In this document: positions 1,031 through 11,297 of the stretch, in pieces
Layout: each line of letters begins with the position of its first letter
How positions within the stretch are numbered: position 1 is the first letter of the stretch
Source: Micavibrio sp.
Lineage (GTDB): Bacteria; Pseudomonadota; Alphaproteobacteria; Micavibrionales; UBA9664
Direction: 5' to 3'
NCBI GenBank assembly: GCA_002699085.1
Contig: PAAR01000018.1
Span: 1-36,844, forward strand
Length of the DNA stretch: 36,844 nucleotides
Made by a program: the position numbers and the translations under genes
The notes under the pieces: model-generated
What the model saw: only the letters and a program-made list of their open reading frames with translations
Told to the model about the DNA's origin: nothing
Databases searched by the model: none

Positions 1031-1357
1031 TTAACTTTCAGTTTTTTTAACGAGTCGCTTTGATAACTGCCCTGTCCACAGCCCTTTACGGTAATTAAAA
1101 AATATCCAACCAAAAAGACGGGTCGCCAAATACACAAGACCTGCCATAGGATCTTTATTTTCTTTAAGCTTCTGATACATAATTTTATCCGCCTGCAAGC
1201 GATCCTTACCTGTACCGCCGCCACGTATACCATAGGCATTGTCATGGAATTTACACACCATATTACGGCCATGCTTAGAACTATCGAGAACCATACAGTA
1301 ATCCCGATGTAATTTGACCTGCTTCGAATGTTTCTGCTTGCCTTCACCTTTTTGCAT
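1031..1357 (-). CDS. Small phospholipase A2-like protein
   Basis: The protein has 108 residues counted from the ATG at 1357; a TTG at 1393 in the same frame would add 12 residues. The core motif is C35-K-F-H38-D39-N-A-Y42, followed after a glycine-rich loop by D52-R-L-Q-A-D57. This resembles the catalytic HDxxY...D arrangement of the phospholipase A2 superfamily, where histidine and aspartate activate water and the glycine-rich loop binds calcium. There is a second cysteine at 21, one hydrophobic stretch around residues 72-88 (GLVYLATRLFGWIFF) and a basic tail. No signal peptide is visible. The gene diverges from the membrane hydrolase pair with about 16 bp between ATGs. Seen: motif and context. 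Inferred: lipid-cleaving activity. An inactive relative or an unrelated HD protein remains possible. Confidence 0.45.
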   Translation of the reverse strand: MQKGEGKQKHSKQVKLHRDYCMVLDSSKHGRNMVCKFHDNAYGIRGGGTGKDRLQADKIMYQKLKENKDPMAGLVYLATRLFGWIFFNYRKGLWTGQLSKRLVKKTES

Positions 1358-1373
1358 GGCTAAGAAAGTACCT

Positions 1374-2492
1374 ATGTCTATTGATCGCCGCAAGGTTTTT
1401 TATATTTCTGGCTTTGACCCTCGAGGCGCAAGGCATTATCATAATCTTTTTGTAAATGAAGCTGAACGCTTTAACCAAAAGATCGACGGTGATTTAACTG
1501 TGTCGTCGCGCGTTAAAGAAAGCGATGAAGAAATAAGCTGGCAAACTATATATGAGAACGAACAAGGGACAACCGTCAGTGACCATACAATGCTTGGCTG
1601 GGACGATATTATTCGTCAAAATTGGCTCAAAGACCCATTTAAATTATTTACCAAATCAATCCATGCCTACATCGACAACATTACAATTGCTGACTGGCAA
1701 ACAGCACTTAAACTCTCCAGAGCGCCGATTATTACTCTAGGCTACCCTGTACTTGTCTTGTTCGTTTTAGGCTTATTAATTTTTAGTTTCAGCCAATATC
1801 TCTTTTTTTTCACTACTAATATCTGGCTTTGTCTCGCAGGTTTAGCCATCTTGTTTTTTTTAGCTTACAAACTGTTCAGTATTGTTAAAGCACCTTGGTT
1901 ATTAAGACTTTTTATCATTAACAATAAAATGGCACATGGCCCCGTAAAAGATATTGAGGACCGCATAGACTTATTTGCTGCCATTATCCAAGATACTGCA
2001 GACCGTGACAAATATGATGAAATATTACTGATCGGCCACAGTAATGGCGCAACATTTTTGGCCCCTATAATTTCGCGCCTTATAAAAAAAGGCGTGCCGC
2101 TCAATAAAATTCGTATTATCAGCCTTGGACATTGTATTCCTCTCGTGAGCCTCAGTAAAAAAGCACTTTATTATAAAGAACACCTTAAAACAGCTGCCTC
2201 TCGTGATTTCTTATGGCTTGATATTGGTGCTGTAGCGGACGGCACATGTTACGCTATGATCGGCCCCTATAAAGGCGCCATTGATGAAACCGACATAAAA
2301 ACCGAACTCGTTTTAAAATCCCCACGTTTTCATGCCAGCTATGATAAGAAAAAATATAAGACGATGAAGCTAAACAAATATGCCTTTCATTTTTTATATC
2401 TAACTTGCCCCGATACACTCGGTAATTATGATTACTTCACAATGACAACTGGTCATTTAGGATTAAGAAGCTACATAAAGACTTTGAAATAA
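1374..2492 (+). CDS. Membrane-anchored alpha/beta-hydrolase-like protein, paralogue 1
   Basis: The protein has 372 residues from the ATG at 1374. That start is preferred over upstream in-frame ATGs because an AG-rich AAGAAAG precedes it and because the paralogue downstream begins at the equivalent place (R-K-V/I-F-Y-I-S-G-F-D-P-R-G). In the middle lie two hydrophobic segments of membrane-span length (about 120-170), then a LLIGHSNGA motif. GHSNG matches the GxSxG nucleophile elbow of alpha/beta hydrolases, so serine is the probable nucleophile. A C-terminal FHFLYL motif, shared with the paralogue, may carry the catalytic histidine, and WLDI an acid. The substrate is unknown; a cytochrome P450 in the same operon suggests a lipid or another hydrophobic compound. 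Only 4 bp separate it from the paralogue. Confidence 0.65.
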   Translation: MSIDRRKVFYISGFDPRGARHYHNLFVNEAERFNQKIDGDLTVSSRVKESDEEISWQTIYENEQGTTVSDHTMLGWDDIIRQNWLKDPFKLFTKSIHAYIDNITIADWQTALKLSRAPIITLGYPVLVLFVLGLLIFSFSQYLFFFTTNIWLCLAGLAILFFLAYKLFSIVKAPWLLRLFIINNKMAHGPVKDIEDRIDLFAAIIQDTADRDKYDEILLIGHSNGATFLAPIISRLIKKGVPLNKIRIISLGHCIPLVSLSKKALYYKEHLKTAASRDFLWLDIGAVADGTCYAMIGPYKGAIDETDIKTELVLKSPRFHASYDKKKYKTMKLNKYAFHFLYLTCPDTLGNYDYFTMTTGHLGLRSYIKTLK

Positions 2493-2496
2493 GACG

Positions 2497-3537
2497 ATGA
2501 TAAAAAAGAGGAAAATATTTTATATTTCTGGATTTGATCCACGTGGCCCTGGTTTTTATCATGCGCTTTACGCTCAAAATGCGCCGCAATTTCATGTATC
2601 AAAGCGCTCTAAAAAATCAGCCCATGAAAGCCACTGGCTTGTAGAGAATGAGAACACAGAAACCGATTACATCTTTTTACGCTGGGACGATATAATCAGA
2701 CAATATTGGATCAAAGACCCGCTGACACTTTATAAAAAAACACTGACCATGTACCTCCAACAGTTCAGAGATTTTAATTGGAAAGATGCTAGACATCACA
2801 ATAAGATGACCCTTATGACGGTATTTCACTTACCGCTCATGTTACTGTTTTGGGCTGTATTGCTTTTACTCCACACGCCATTGCTCATCTTTGCAACTAT
2901 ATTTCTTTTTAGCCTATGGCACCTAAGACGGATACAATCTAATTGGTTATTACGTGTCTTCATTTTCAACAATGCCTTTATATATGAACAGCCAGAAAGC
3001 ATAGAAAAAAGGCTTGATACATTTGCAAAATGTATCAAAGAAGCAATTGATGATGAAAACTATAATGAGATATTATTGATCGGCCATAGCAATGGTTCAG
3101 TCATGATTCCACCAATCATTGATAGACTAGGCGAGAGCGCACAACGGGTTCATGTTATTACTTTAGGCCAAATATTCCCTCTCGTTACACTCAATAAAAA
3201 AGCAAATACTTATAAAGACGTTTTAAGAAGAATATCTCACATTCCTTTTAAATGGCTTGATATCAGCAATCTAGGAGACCGAGCCTGCTTCCCTTTAACC
3301 AGTCCGTTCAAAGATGTTGTGACATCTTATAAGACCAAACTCACACTTGCATCAGCGCAATTTCATAAGCTTTATACGCCCAAACGCTTTCATCAGCTCA
3401 AAATGAAAAAGTTTGATTTTCATTTTCTCTATCTTAAAAAAGGTGAAATAAAAGGTAGTTATGACTATGCTGAGTTAACAGCTGGTTCGAAATCTTTTGA
3501 CGGATACGTAAAAACCCTTAAAGTCGTCAAAGCATGA
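2497..3537 (+). CDS. Membrane-anchored alpha/beta-hydrolase-like protein, paralogue 2
   Basis: At 346 residues this is a tandem paralogue of the preceding protein, alignable along its whole length. It shares the N-terminal YISGFDPRG block, the LRWDDIIRQYWIKDP block, two adjacent transmembrane segments (about 105-145), LLIGHSNGS with the presumed nucleophilic serine, WLDISNLGD, FHFLYL and a GSYDY motif near the end. It is shorter mainly because the linker after the first block is reduced. It starts 4 bp after its paralogue and its stop overlaps the P450 start (ATGA), so the three genes are very probably one translationally coupled operon. Two divergent copies kept side by side suggest a heteromeric complex or different substrates; that is inference. 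No experimentally known family is recognised with certainty. Confidence 0.65.
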   Translation: MIKKRKIFYISGFDPRGPGFYHALYAQNAPQFHVSKRSKKSAHESHWLVENENTETDYIFLRWDDIIRQYWIKDPLTLYKKTLTMYLQQFRDFNWKDARHHNKMTLMTVFHLPLMLLFWAVLLLLHTPLLIFATIFLFSLWHLRRIQSNWLLRVFIFNNAFIYEQPESIEKRLDTFAKCIKEAIDDENYNEILLIGHSNGSVMIPPIIDRLGESAQRVHVITLGQIFPLVTLNKKANTYKDVLRRISHIPFKWLDISNLGDRACFPLTSPFKDVVTSYKTKLTLASAQFHKLYTPKRFHQLKMKKFDFHFLYLKKGEIKGSYDYAELTAGSKSFDGYVKTLKVVKA

Positions 3538-4907
3538 AACAGACAGAAAAATTTACACCACCATATCCCAAGCCGCATAAAAGCCCATTAAAGCAATTTA
3601 CCCGTTTTTTGCTTGGGTGGCAGTCATGGATACATACCATCTCTGAAACCAGCTATAAAATGAGCATGGGAGCGGTAAAATTTCCGCATATTGATTTTTT
3701 CGTTGTTAATGATCGGGCGCTTGTACAAAAAATCGGCATTAAAAATTATAAAAAATTTCCTAAACACCGCCTCCAACATGAAATCCTTTGCCCTCTTTTA
3801 GGTGAAAGTATTTTCACGACGAACGGGAAAACATGGGAACGCCAACGTCAAATGATGAACCCTGCTTTTGCCCATACGCATCTGCAACGTGCGTTTAATA
3901 ATATGGACGGGGCAATTAAAAATTTACTGGCACGCATTGATCGTGCAGATAGATCAACACCCGTGGCAATTGACCCGCTTATGACTCATGTCACCGCAGA
4001 TATCATTTTCCGTACAATTTTATCCCATACAATTGAAGAGGGCGATGCCTACAAAGTCTTTGAAAACTTTAATGTATTTCAAGATTATACCCAGCGCACG
4101 ATGGTCCTAAAGTCATTTCATCTGCCGAGTGGCTTTTTTAAAAAGCAAATTGACAGAGCCTGTGACAATATTCGCTCTGTTTTAAGACCCATCATCACGG
4201 AACGCTATGAAAATTACCATGCAGGAAAAAAAGACGATAAGAGCGATATTCTTTCAAGCCTATTGGAAGCAAAAGATGATGAAGGCACACATTTTCCTCT
4301 TGATGAGCTGATTAATCATGTGGCGATGTTATTCTTAGCAGGCCATGAAACCAGTGCTTCAGCACTCACATGGTCTTTCTATTTGCTATCAAAATGTCCG
4401 CATTTACAAAAAGAGATCCGAAAAGAAATCGCCGATAATGCAGTAGATGGGGAGATTGTCTTTGAAAGCATCAAAAACTTAAAAATAACACGCAATGTTT
4501 TTAATGAAGCTTTACGCCTTTACCCACCTGTAAGCTTTTTACCACGTGAAGCATCCCGTGACTGTGTCATCCGCAAAAAGGACGTCAAAAAAGGTTCAAT
4601 GTTCTCTATTTCACCATGGTTGATACAACGCCACCGCAAGCAATGGCAAGATCCCGATGTATTTGATCCATCTCGTTTTGATGATCCTGCCCAACAAGAA
4701 TCAGTCAAGCAAAGCTTTCTACCTTTCGGCATTGGACCACGCATATGCATCGGTAAAGGTTTTGCCATGCAAGAAGGTGTTATGGCGATCGCCAATGTCT
4801 TGCAACAATACGAATTACGCAACAAAGAAGGGCAAGTGCCAGAGCCTATGGCACGTATTACAACACGCCCAAAACATGAAATTGAACTCTGGTTTGATAA
4901 GCGTTAA
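3534..4907 (+). CDS. Cytochrome P450
   Basis: This is a 457-residue haem-thiolate monooxygenase with all diagnostic elements. They are WxxxR of helix C (W101-R105), the oxygen-activating I-helix A269-G-H-E-T273, ExxR of the K helix (EALRLYPP, about 325-332), a PxRF-like DPSRFDD and the haem loop FGIGPRICIG with cysteine 405. There is no N-terminal membrane anchor, so it should be soluble and use separate redox partners; none is encoded nearby. The layout resembles the CYP102/CYP4-like fatty-acid-hydroxylating group, but the substrate cannot be read from sequence. The start overlaps the hydrolase stop by four bases (ATGA). Its stop codon overlaps the stop of the convergent dioxygenase gene. 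Confidence 0.95.
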   Translation: MKQTEKFTPPYPKPHKSPLKQFTRFLLGWQSWIHTISETSYKMSMGAVKFPHIDFFVVNDRALVQKIGIKNYKKFPKHRLQHEILCPLLGESIFTTNGKTWERQRQMMNPAFAHTHLQRAFNNMDGAIKNLLARIDRADRSTPVAIDPLMTHVTADIIFRTILSHTIEEGDAYKVFENFNVFQDYTQRTMVLKSFHLPSGFFKKQIDRACDNIRSVLRPIITERYENYHAGKKDDKSDILSSLLEAKDDEGTHFPLDELINHVAMLFLAGHETSASALTWSFYLLSKCPHLQKEIRKEIADNAVDGEIVFESIKNLKITRNVFNEALRLYPPVSFLPREASRDCVIRKKDVKKGSMFSISPWLIQRHRKQWQDPDVFDPSRFDDPAQQESVKQSFLPFGIGPRICIGKGFAMQEGVMAIANVLQQYELRNKEGQVPEPMARITTRPKHEIELWFDKR

Positions 4908-5920
4908 GCAGCCTCTTTTTGCTCAGTCAAATCAACAGGCTGCCACATCGGTGTGCGGCCATGTTGAGCCGCCTCATACTCGCTACGCTTTTGTTTATTC
5001 TTCAAATAAGCAACACGCCATTGCTGGAACAATTTAAAATCCAGCGCAAAGAAGCCCCAAAATGGATTAGCACGATCTTGCATATATACAGACATACGTG
5101 TTGAGCCCTTATTTGCCTGCCCTCTCCTATGAAAGCCATATGTATTAGCAAAGACTAATGTGTTTTTCTTAACAGTGAATGGTTTTGGTTGAGGCAAGCC
5201 GAGTTCATCTAAATCTTTATCACGTGCACGGAACGAACCACGCTGTGTGTAACTATCTTCGCTAGTTGCCGCCGTCAAACTTTTTTTGTACTCCCATTTA
5301 ATACGTTTCCAATCAAGTCTGTGAGACCCTTCAACGTACTCCAAAGGTCCATTGGCCTCAGTCACATCATCTAAATATAGCCATGCTTTAACCGTTGGGT
5401 GGAATGTATCACTGTGTAAATTCTTTTGAGGATCTTCACCTTTTTTTAAAACACCATTTCTAATATGCTCGATGTACATAAGCGGCGAATGGTTGGCAGA
5501 CCCACCATAGCGAAACAGGCCTTTTAATCGCTTATCTTGTGCAAATGTGGCAGCAGCCGATGCATCTACATCCTCAAATATATGGCGCTGCGTAAGTGTA
5601 TCCCCCTGACGACATTGCAAAAAACCTCCCGTTACAGCACGCAATTGCTTATTCAATTTTTCAAACTGAACATCAGGCAAGAAATTTTCAATCACGACGA
5701 ATCCTTGGGCGTGATACGCATCACGATATTTTTTATCGAGACGCCAAAACAGTAAGCACCAGCGAAAACGGGTCATTAAATGCGCCATAACCAACCGAAA
5801 AACATGCAACCCCATGCGATTCATTGTTTTTGAGCCTATAATGGGATTATCTTTAAATGATTTAGCTTGAGTAAAAAACTCAAAAAACCAGATCAGATTT
5901 TGTTTTAAACGCATATTCAA
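4904..5920 (-). CDS. Phytanoyl-CoA dioxygenase (PhyH) family protein
   Basis: This is a 338-residue Fe(II)/2-oxoglutarate-dependent oxygenase. The iron-binding facial triad is visible as H169-x-D171 (in NLHSDTFHP) and distal H264 (YGFHRRGQ). R275 in STRMSVY is placed to hold 2-oxoglutarate. The segment DDVTEANGPLEYVEGSH between them is typical of the PhyH family, which hydroxylates lipids, antibiotics or small metabolites. An N-terminal extension of about 60 mostly basic and aromatic residues precedes the domain and may touch the membrane. The gene is convergent with the P450 and their stop codons overlap, leaving no room for separate terminators. Two different oxygenases beside hydrolase-like proteins support a modification or breakdown pathway for a hydrophobic substrate; that is inference. 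Confidence 0.88.
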   Translation of the reverse strand: MNMRLKQNLIWFFEFFTQAKSFKDNPIIGSKTMNRMGLHVFRLVMAHLMTRFRWCLLFWRLDKKYRDAYHAQGFVVIENFLPDVQFEKLNKQLRAVTGGFLQCRQGDTLTQRHIFEDVDASAAATFAQDKRLKGLFRYGGSANHSPLMYIEHIRNGVLKKGEDPQKNLHSDTFHPTVKAWLYLDDVTEANGPLEYVEGSHRLDWKRIKWEYKKSLTAATSEDSYTQRGSFRARDKDLDELGLPQPKPFTVKKNTLVFANTYGFHRRGQANKGSTRMSVYMQDRANPFWGFFALDFKLFQQWRVAYLKNKQKRSEYEAAQHGRTPMWQPVDLTEQKEAA

Positions 5921-8330: not shown

Positions 8331-9467
8331 ATGCTCATTTGGTTACACGGCGTAAGTATTGGAGAGAGCCTTGCTAATATAACCCTTAGCAAGGCTTTGT
8401 CACATCAATATCCTAAAGCTAAAATTCTGCTGACAAGCACGACAAAAACCTCAGAAAAAATTCTTACTGACTTTGTGCACAAACATCCACAAATGTCCTA
8501 CGATAAATACCCTCATGACTGGCCATGGCAGGTAAACGCTTTCCTTAATAAATGGCAACCAGATGTCGTTATATTTGGTGAGTCTGAATTATGGCCTTTC
8601 ATGCTATGGGGTCTTCGCCGTCGCAATATACCCGCTGCCCTTATCAATGCTCGACTATCTGAAAAATCCTATCGACGCTGGAAATGGCTTCTTTTCCTTA
8701 TTCACCTCATGCTTAAAACCTTTTCGATCATTCTTGCACAAAGTGATGATGAAGCAGCGCGCTATGTTGCACTAGGTGGTGAGAACGTTTTTACCGTCGG
8801 TAATTTAAAATTTGCAACAGAACCACTAACGCATGATCGCAAAAAGCTTGCGACACTCAAAAAGCAACTCAACAAACGCCCCCTTATGCTATTTGCAAGC
8901 ACTCATGCGCCAGAAGAAGAAATGGCCGTCCGCCTTCACAAAAAACTAAAGAAGGATATGCCTGATCTTCTTAGCATCATTGTGCCTCGCCATCCCGATC
9001 GTGGCGAAAAGATCATGTCGACTTTGGGTAAGGCTGTAACACAACGCTCTAAAAATGCCCCCATCACTGAAAATACAGAAATATATCTTGCCGACACATT
9101 AGGAGAACTAGGCTTGTTTTACACGCTCTGTCCTATTGCTTTCATTGGCAATTCCATGACGACACAGCCTGGTGGTGGACACAACCTCATTGAGCCTGCA
9201 CAGCTGAATTGTGCAATTATCTACGGCCCCGAAATGTTTAATTTTAAAGAAATGGATCAAGATCTTACAAGCACCAAAGGTGCTATTAAAGTCACAACAG
9301 AGGCGATGCTATACAAAAAAATAAAAGAACTCTTAAAAAACCCGCAAAAACAAAAAGAATTGACCAAAGCCGCTGTCGCCTACGCTCAATCAAAACAAGA
9401 TGTTTTGCCTAATATACTTGAAAAGCTATCGCCAGTGATAGATACTGCAAAACATGCAGGCTCCTAA
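8331..9467 (+). CDS. waaA: 3-deoxy-D-manno-octulosonic acid (Kdo) transferase
   Basis: WaaA (KdtA) transfers Kdo from CMP-Kdo to lipid IVA at the inner membrane, the first core step of LPS synthesis. The protein begins almost directly at the glycosyltransferase domain: IWLHGVSIGES contains the catalytic glutamate (E12). The C-terminal half carries the donor-site motif GGGHNLIEPAQ. At 378 residues it is shorter than the usual 420 or so because the N-terminal membrane anchor of about 45 residues is missing. The preceding gene ends only 9 bp upstream and no extension is possible in frame. The first gene of an envelope operon, it overlaps lpxK by 14 bp. Confidence 0.93.
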   Translation: MLIWLHGVSIGESLANITLSKALSHQYPKAKILLTSTTKTSEKILTDFVHKHPQMSYDKYPHDWPWQVNAFLNKWQPDVVIFGESELWPFMLWGLRRRNIPAALINARLSEKSYRRWKWLLFLIHLMLKTFSIILAQSDDEAARYVALGGENVFTVGNLKFATEPLTHDRKKLATLKKQLNKRPLMLFASTHAPEEEMAVRLHKKLKKDMPDLLSIIVPRHPDRGEKIMSTLGKAVTQRSKNAPITENTEIYLADTLGELGLFYTLCPIAFIGNSMTTQPGGGHNLIEPAQLNCAIIYGPEMFNFKEMDQDLTSTKGAIKVTTEAMLYKKIKELLKNPQKQKELTKAAVAYAQSKQDVLPNILEKLSPVIDTAKHAGS

Positions 9468-10434
9468 ATTTTGGTATGACATTGAGATAGCTAAAAAACT
9501 ATGGTACTGGCCTTTTTTAACAGGTCTCAGTAAAATCTACCTATGGTGTCACCAACAATACCAAAATGCCTCTTCTTCTTACCATGTCGATATCCCTGTT
9601 TTTTGTGTAGGGAACATTGTTGCTGGCGGTGCTGGTAAGACACCAACAGCCCTTATGCTGCATTCATTACTCAATAAAAAATATAAAAATATTGCTTTTT
9701 TAAGCCGTGGCTATGGCGGCGATCTAGAAGGCCCAGTATTTGTCGACCTCAATATCCACCGCCCTAAAGACGTAGGTGATGAACCTTTATTACTTGCAAA
9801 ACATGCACGCACCATTATTGCCAAAGATAAAGCGGCTGGCGCTCGCTATGCCATAGAAAACAATATTGATTGCATCATTCTCGATGATGGCTTTCAAAAT
9901 CCGCATCTACAAAAAAGCTGCCATGTTCTTGTCATTGACGGGCGAGGTTTTGGTAATGAAGAGCTGATCCCGGCTGGTCCTTTACGTGAACCTATTAAAG
10001 AAGCTTTAGAAAAAGCCGATATTGTTATTGCTACAGAGCCACTTCCTCAACAAGTCAAAGCTCATCTAAAGGCCAATTGGCTGCCTGTATTTAAAGGAAA
10101 TTTCACAGCACAAATCAAAACACCAGAAGATCCAAAAGTTTTTGGTTTTGCTGGCATTGCTAATCCAGAAAAATTTAAAAAGACATTAGAAGATAATGGT
10201 TATGATATTGTCGGTTTTATGGGCTTCCCAGATCATCATGTTTATACAGAACATGATATGCAACGTCTATACGATAAAGCCCGTACTGTTCAATTGATTA
10301 CAACAGAAAAGGATGCTGTCAAAATACCTTCACATTGGCAGAATAAAATACAAACACTGCCCATCACTTTAACGATAGAAAACCAAAAAGATTTAGATAA
10401 ATGGCTAGAAACCCATCTTTCCTCAAACGCATAA
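9454..10434 (+). CDS. lpxK: Tetraacyldisaccharide 4'-kinase
   Basis: LpxK phosphorylates the 4' position of the tetraacyl disaccharide to make lipid IVA. The 326-residue protein has the family start APKFWY, a hydrophobic membrane-associating N-terminal helix (about 15-32), the Walker A loop G53-NIVAGGAGKTP (GAGKT near 59-63), LSRGYGG, and the DDGFQNPHL motif typical of the family. ITTEKDAVK near the C-terminus is also characteristic. The gene overlaps waaA by 14 bp and the acyltransferase gene by 34 bp, so the three are likely translated in a coupled way. It provides the substrate that the neighbouring waaA and acyltransferase act on. Confidence 0.95.
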   Translation: MQAPKFWYDIEIAKKLWYWPFLTGLSKIYLWCHQQYQNASSSYHVDIPVFCVGNIVAGGAGKTPTALMLHSLLNKKYKNIAFLSRGYGGDLEGPVFVDLNIHRPKDVGDEPLLLAKHARTIIAKDKAAGARYAIENNIDCIILDDGFQNPHLQKSCHVLVIDGRGFGNEELIPAGPLREPIKEALEKADIVIATEPLPQQVKAHLKANWLPVFKGNFTAQIKTPEDPKVFGFAGIANPEKFKKTLEDNGYDIVGFMGFPDHHVYTEHDMQRLYDKARTVQLITTEKDAVKIPSHWQNKIQTLPITLTIENQKDLDKWLETHLSSNA

Positions 10435-11297
10435 GACATGTTCTTGAATATGTGCTGCTCAAGCTCTATTTAGCGCTTTGTATCCTTGTGGGCGCAAAGA
10501 ATGCCTCTAATATGGGCGGCGTTGTTGGCCGCTTCATCGGTTCTTTATTAGGCAAATCACGTGCCGTTGTAAAACGTATAGAAGCACATTTAGACGATGC
10601 AGATGGTCAGGAAATTATGCTGGGTATGTGGGATAATTTAGGCCGTGTCTTATCTGAATATCCACACCTTCGTCATATCGCTAAGCATAAAGTACATATT
10701 GAGAACCCCAAATTAATCAAAAAAATTATCGACCAAGGTAAGCCTATTATGTTTATTGGCGGGCACTGCGCAAATTGGGAATTACAAACAATGCTTATTT
10801 TTACCCATTATGGCATAGGTATTAATGCGCTTTATCGCCCACCAAACAACCCTTATGTCGACAAAGCATTACAAGCCATGCGTAAAATTGACGCTCATAC
10901 AAACACTATTCCAAAATCAGCCACCGGTGCCAAAGAACTTATCAAGGCCATGCGTGATAAAAAATCAATTGGCTTTTTATTCGACCAAAAATTTAACAAG
11001 GGTGAGGCTATTCCCCTGCTCGGCGAGGAAGCTATGAGCTATACAAGTATTATTCCTTTAGTACAAAAATATGATTATGTACTTTTCCCTTTTCATATAA
11101 AACGTGACAAGCAAGACCCTACAAAATTCATTTTTCGGGCGGAACATCCGATTGATCTCTTTAATCAAAAGGGTGAAGCTAGATCAAGCCTTGCTGTCTT
11201 TACCGATATGCATGAACTCCTTGAGAAATGGATTAAAGAAACGCCAGCAGAATGGCTATGGCTACACAATCGTTGGGGAAAGCCTAAGCGTCGATGA
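10401..11297 (+). CDS. Lipid A late acyltransferase (LpxL/LpxM family)
   Basis: This is a 298-residue member of the Lip_A_acyltrans family, which adds secondary acyl chains to Kdo2-lipid IVA from acyl-ACP at the inner membrane. A hydrophobic N-terminal anchor (about 12-32) is followed by the HX4E catalytic motif in GGHCANWE and by downstream blocks LYRPPNNPYVD, GFLFDQK and the C-terminal WLWLHNRWG, all typical. It cannot be decided from sequence whether this is the LpxL- or LpxM-type activity. The start overlaps lpxK by 34 bp and the stop overlaps nadE by 4 bp (ATGA). Confidence 0.93.
   Translation: MARNPSFLKRIRHVLEYVLLKLYLALCILVGAKNASNMGGVVGRFIGSLLGKSRAVVKRIEAHLDDADGQEIMLGMWDNLGRVLSEYPHLRHIAKHKVHIENPKLIKKIIDQGKPIMFIGGHCANWELQTMLIFTHYGIGINALYRPPNNPYVDKALQAMRKIDAHTNTIPKSATGAKELIKAMRDKKSIGFLFDQKFNKGEAIPLLGEEAMSYTSIIPLVQKYDYVLFPFHIKRDKQDPTKFIFRAEHPIDLFNQKGEARSSLAVFTDMHELLEKWIKETPAEWLWLHNRWGKPKRR

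Follow-up and report, generated by a model that had tools for sequence, protein, structure and literature searches.

A conserved hydrolase–cytochrome P450 gene pair in a Micavibrio genome: a candidate lipid-processing module associated with KpsC/KpsS-type capsule genes

The window, meaning the whole stretch of DNA analysed here (36,844 bp), covers contig C19 of a Micavibrio sp. MAG (1.89 Mb in 31 contigs) from end to end. Five adjacent genes lie near its start, with the following layout:

1031-1357, minus strand: small phospholipase A2 (PLA2)-like protein with an HDNAYG-GGG motif (ORF, divergent from hydrolase A)
1358-1373: 16 bp separating the start codon of hydrolase A from that of the divergent PLA2-like gene (window sequence)
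1374-2492, plus strand: hydrolase paralogue A, YISGFDPRG family, with GHSNG (ORF, homologue alignment, tree)
2497-3537, plus strand: hydrolase paralogue B, YISGFDPRG family (AlphaFold2 model, conservation over 90 members)
3534-4907, plus strand: cytochrome P450 (PF00067, E = 2.4e-79; in the clade of hydrolase-linked P450s)
4904-5920, minus strand: PhyH-type Fe(II)/2-oxoglutarate dioxygenase (PF05721, E = 3.1e-11; HxD...H kept in comparison with four homologues)

All five genes were present where the original prediction had placed them, and ORFs, Pfam and motif reading confirmed their motifs. Hydrolases A and B are 4 bp apart, and an ATGA at 3534-3537 combines the P450 start with the stop of hydrolase B. 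An overlap of the kind that the proposed translational coupling of the P450 to the paralogues calls for was thus seen with hydrolase B only. The dioxygenase and the P450 do have the stop-codon bases 4904-4907 in common, as had been remarked; however, they lie on opposite strands and the overlap is convergent, so the shared bases do not place PhyH in the operon. The one same-genus genome examined had no copy of the hydrolase, and within the order 3 of 142 genomes had one, which makes the module patchy. PADLOC gave no anti-phage defence match for six window proteins. Next to the block, at 148-957 on the minus strand, a 269-aa protein matched nothing in Pfam or NCBIfam and had no homologue among the fetched loci.

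GHSNG had been reported twice in membrane-anchored hydrolase-like proteins, and this was borne out. Both paralogues (41% identical) carry the motif, and both contain hydrophobic segments: two near residues 114-173 in A and one stretch near residues 104-143 in B. The AlphaFold2 model of paralogue B (pLDDT 93.4, pTM 0.92) confidently predicts a serine alpha/beta hydrolase with a parallel sheet core, a nucleophile elbow and a Ser-Asp-His arrangement for which S198, D261 and H309 are the candidate triad. Across 90 aligned members E191, H197, D255 and D261 were essentially invariant, H309 was kept in every alignment row with letters, and position 198 was Ser in 89 of 90 members, the other (L081) having Cys. 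This L081 protein (762-1889; the same as G002:C7) shows SHCMG in place of GHSNG, so that the Ser nucleophile becomes Cys, and retains the P450 coupling.

The fold search with paralogue B was led by feruloyl esterases, followed by lipases and other serine hydrolases, at E > 1e-3 and a TM of about 0.3; the low TM is due to the inserted membrane hairpin. No Pfam family scored above its cut-off for either window hydrolase. The leanings below cut-off were lipase-like (LIDHydrolase, Lipase_3 and Tle3), with hydrolase B reaching 22.1 bits for LIDHydrolase PF10230 against a cut-off of 27, too low for membership. The window hydrolases therefore share the GHSNG elbow, the Ser/Asp/His residues and the parallel sheet with the alpha/beta hydrolase superfamily (lipases, PF10230, feruloyl esterases), but differ from its known members by an N-terminal YISGFDPRG strand and the inserted membrane hairpin. 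Database entries label members of the family as hypothetical proteins, except for a single one named alpha/beta hydrolase. A search of viral contigs turned up no relative of the hydrolase.

The P450 is full-length, as had been stated, with the PF00067 domain and every P450 motif, including the heme loop FGIGPRICIG, the I-helix AGHET and the K-helix ExxR. The nearest solved structures were CYP97A3/LUT5, then CYP102 and CYP46 types, which include fatty-acid hydroxylases. It shares all motifs with known P450s, yet falls in its own clade, defined by hydrolase linkage and outside any assignable CYP family, and it is the single match for this P450 in the window's genome. No ferredoxin or reductase gene adjoins it, in agreement with the original prediction, and two adrenodoxin-type ferredoxins are encoded on other contigs of the genome. 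In Gammaproteobacteria and Burkholderiales the P450 is followed by a conserved 115-aa protein that has a single hydrophobic segment at its N-terminus, and on the Polaromonas JS666 plasmid its gene lies between P450 and hydrolase. Tested as a candidate ferredoxin, it gave no Pfam match. The gene was located at:

L040, 3737-4090
L056, 3527-3874
L060, 5453-5800
L065, 12558-12905
L075, 10708-11055
L080, 3627-3974
L086, 7714-8076
L199, 6645-6989

Sister P450s with 36-37% identity, at L103, L104 and L105 (G246, G237 and G269), had no hydrolase neighbour, and we recognised no neighbours common to them.

PhyH scored 44.4 bits for PF05721 against a cut-off of 22. Its Fe(II)/2-oxoglutarate triad was found intact as predicted: H-S-D, the distal H and an additional R were conserved in the four homologues compared. 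Other PhyH homologues (40-42% identical to that of the window) were observed immediately 3' of kpsS in Hyphomicrobiales-type MAGs, at L090:3652-4704 and L095:3462-4565.

The PLA2-like ORF runs over 1031-1393 on the minus strand, with a likely ATG start at 1357. The same divergent PLA2-like/hydrolase arrangement was found in 52 other loci, nearly all from Sphingomonadales, together with Rhizobiales dw_265. The start-to-start gap was 14-22 bp in 49 of the 52 and is 16 bp in the window; hydrolase A is read from 1374 because that start fits this conserved spacing. In 53 aligned members of the small protein, R-x-YC, C-x-x-HDN-x-YG, GGG and a D were invariant. All profile matches were below threshold (1FAZ, E 0.33; 1OWS, E 0.55; PF08398, E 0.03), and in the 1FAZ alignment C-x-x-HD-x-x-Y and the conserved downstream D line up. 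The structure model was poor (pLDDT 66), and a fold search with this weak model gave no match. The HDNAYG motif of the proposed PLA2-like fold is real, but the fold itself was not recovered: residues of the catalytic motif align with prokaryotic PLA2 of the 1FAZ type, whereas the model does not reproduce the PLA2 structure. The sequence likeness hints at a weak kinship to true phospholipase A2. No secretion signal was seen in the protein.

We scanned public genome contigs with a five-sequence profile and obtained 80 loci; gene calls at the fetched loci came from a simple caller of our own and have approximate boundaries, and taxonomic names are taken from submitters' titles. In 72 of the 80 loci a P450 was located just downstream of the hydrolase on the same strand. 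Five of the remaining eight are cut short by a contig edge; of the 75 testable loci 72 thus retain the P450, the exceptions being L064 (= G141), L090 and L095. At L079, L086 and L091 the P450 is still close, with other genes, an IS-type gene or some 450 bp in between. The pair was spread over Sphingomonadales, Rhizobiaceae, Gammaproteobacteria, Burkholderiales and one Verrucomicrobia MAG. A second scan, over the phylum-wide draw of 398 genomes described below, found the P450 in 27 of 27 loci (L145-L171).

In the trees, hydrolase-linked P450s formed one clade (98/98), and P450-linked hydrolases formed one clade (99/99) that is sister to a P450-free clade. The lone apparent exception within the P450 clade, G002:C65, breaks off at a contig end on the flank expected to carry the hydrolase. 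The window pair A/B groups together in both trees, on long branches. The adjacency counts and both trees together suggest that the common ancestor of the clade already had the linkage and that it has seldom been lost since. Homologues of this hydrolase clade overwhelmingly adjoin a P450 and the model of the hydrolase is an alpha/beta hydrolase; on these two points the original prediction was open to contradiction, and neither contradicts it. The neighbourhood expected for PhyH was not borne out: it lies beside the P450 in two other loci only (L061 and L069) and also in the kps cluster of L090/L095, and was rejected as a general partner.

A chance cluster of five genes without a joint role is hardly credible after these counts. 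It would suit PhyH, which is on the opposite strand and is a rarely conserved neighbour, but the pair and the divergent PLA2-like arrangement are conserved clade-wide, which refutes chance clustering for the hydrolase, the P450 and the PLA2-like gene. The block is best read as the local version of a lipid-processing module that is conserved but undescribed, with a membrane-anchored serine hydrolase and a dedicated P450 subfamily at its core. The PLA2-like protein accompanies this module in particular lineages, and PhyH is a local addition to it.

Lipid-related genes were also observed beside the module at other loci. An AlkB-type monooxygenase, with the motifs HE-hist, EHxxGHH, NYxEHYGL and HxxHH read from its sequence, immediately precedes the hydrolase in L055, L061, L069 and L077. 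At L079, a desaturase-family gene and a PF10118 gene stand between hydrolase and P450. A PEMT/ICMT-type methyltransferase adjoins P450-free hydrolases. The AlkB, desaturase-family and PF10118 genes, together with the fatty-acid hydroxylases and CYP97 among the nearest solved P450s, would fit a version of the joint role first proposed: a catabolic or signalling pathway, unrelated to capsules, that frees and oxidises a fatty acid, alkane or prenyl chain of a membrane lipid. We consider such a pathway distinctly unlikely, as no beta-oxidation, transport or regulator genes were consistently found beside the pair and it leaves the kps co-occurrence and linkage described below unexplained. The lipid theme of the proposal is upheld by the AlkB, patatin, LpxR and GT21/GT28 neighbours, but the evidence favours a link to KpsC/KpsS over a fatty-acid or prenyl pathway that stands on its own.

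Family f49 shows a tight operon in the order FGGY kinase - LpxR (lipid A 3'-O-deacylase family) - patatin - hydrolase - P450 - GT21 - GST. GT21 was also found at L091, and GT28 lies beside hydrolases in three loci (Polaromonas JS666 plasmid 1, Methylorubrum plasmid pCMU01 and L186). In the window itself, genes for KdtA, LpxK and a lipid A acyltransferase (LpxL) occupy 8331-11297 on the same strand, 2.4-5.4 kb downstream of the block. These observations would be accounted for if the module remodelled another envelope lipid, such as lipid A, a glycosphingolipid-like or other glycolipid, or bulk phospholipid, with the hydrolases deacylating it and P450/PhyH hydroxylating its acyl chains; the kps link would then reflect a shared envelope lifestyle. 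This reading is possible but rather unlikely. No lipid A gene recurs beside the module outside the window, for which lipid A genes were rejected as a general partner. LpxR was confined to f49, and the KdtA-LpxK-LpxL order of the window did not reappear around the module at other loci. KpsC/KpsS, in contrast, recurs in more independent lineages and in nearly all carrier genomes.

KpsC and KpsS are the Kdo transferases that start ABC-transporter-dependent capsules on (lyso)phosphatidylglycerol. Their family, PF05159, was detected in 42 of 44 hydrolase-carrying genomes, both misses being MAGs, versus 44 of 354 in the background (about 12%; p = 4e-30, without correction for kinship or genome size). 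Of 398 genomes drawn across the phylum, 44 gave strong hydrolase matches; of these strong carriers 36 had PF05159, compared with 44 of the 354 others (Fisher p 2e-21, likewise uncorrected). For P450-linked carriers of the same draw the values were 30/30 and 44/354 (Fisher p 7e-24, also uncorrected). Sphingomonadales carriers had the family in 19 of 20 cases, against a Sphingomonadaceae base rate of 25 in 100 (p = 7e-10, with neither kinship nor genome size corrected for). The carriers are phylogenetically clustered, 26 of 30 belonging to one family, and their genomes tend to be larger. In the P450-free sister clade of hydrolases PF05159 is often absent.

In several independent lineages kps genes adjoin or enclose the hydrolase or PhyH. 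The hydrolase is 3 bp from kpsS in G591, and in Zobellella maritima kpsC lies 88 bp upstream of it. L090 and L095 have the hydrolase between kpsE and a kpsT-like ABC gene and PhyH right after kpsS, and the order in L061 and L069 is AlkB-hydrolase-P450-HAD-PhyH-kpsM-T-E-D-S. On Polaromonas JS666 plasmid 1, a kpsC-like gene and GT28 are beside hydrolase-P450-hydrolase. KpsC/KpsS-family or other kps genes were also found near the hydrolase at L057, L064 and L091. The window contig itself has no kps gene, and the window's genome carries all six in a contiguous kpsD-C-S-M-T-E cluster on contig C8 (G000). In the sequence fetched for Sphingobium and f29 (Paracoccaceae-type) the module was not part of a kps cluster, so for these genomes the link is at genome level only.

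The position of hydrolases inside kps clusters, and the feruloyl esterases as best fold matches, could suggest a hydrolase that acts on the polysaccharide instead of the lipid, as a sugar O-acyl esterase or transacylase, with the P450 oxidising a capsule precursor or polyprenyl carrier. We regard this as very unlikely in view of the hydrophobic membrane segments, the lipase-like Pfam leanings and the lipid-enzyme neighbours.

KpsC/KpsS systems function in E. coli without this module. The window's genome and nearly all carriers share the kps genes of E. coli group 2 capsule assembly, but the described E. coli pathway includes no hydrolase, P450, PLA2-like or PhyH gene. In that pathway, KpsS transfers Kdo to (lyso)phosphatidylglycerol (PMC10148158, PMC7694667), KpsC extends the Kdo chain and KpsMTED exports the polymer (PMC10148158, PMC7694667, PMC11041684). 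The anchor is written as (lyso)phosphatidylglycerol, with no enzyme named for the lyso form (PMC10148158, PMC7694667, PMC11041684). Our literature search found nothing on this gene set and no paper joining KpsC, KpsS and cytochrome P450.

We tentatively favour, as the most likely target of the module, the lipid end of a KpsC/KpsS-type capsular glycolipid or its (lyso)phosphatidylglycerol precursor. The substrate and the reaction order that we infer, like all catalysis, are given here as a proposal; the structure model itself points to no substrate. In this scheme the lyso form would arise when the hydrolase and the PLA2-like protein cleave off an acyl chain. Hydroxylation of that released chain, or of the one left on the lipid, would fall to PhyH and to the P450, the latter drawing on ferredoxin from elsewhere. 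A serine hydrolase, a PLA2-like protein or patatin, and alkyl-chain oxygenases (P450, AlkB, PhyH) are the set expected if a lipid end is deacylated and oxidised. A P450-modified capsule anchor is a rather doubtful extension of this proposal, in which the hydrolase-P450 module makes and oxidises the lyso-phospholipid end and also serves as the enzymatic source of the lyso form. Since the pair tracks KpsC/KpsS across phyla, it provides concrete candidate genes for lipid-anchor processing in a pathway described without lipid-modifying enzymes. For a hydrolase family that matches no Pfam entry above threshold, and for a P450 subfamily lacking a known substrate, it likewise offers a starting point towards function.

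Tandem hydrolases were considered as a unique feature of the window, and this was rejected. Polaromonas JS666 plasmid 1 (L199, NC_007949.1) carries two hydrolase paralogues that flank the P450 and the 115-aa gene. In L209/G591, one hydrolase is beside kpsS and a second hydrolase fragment is beside its P450.
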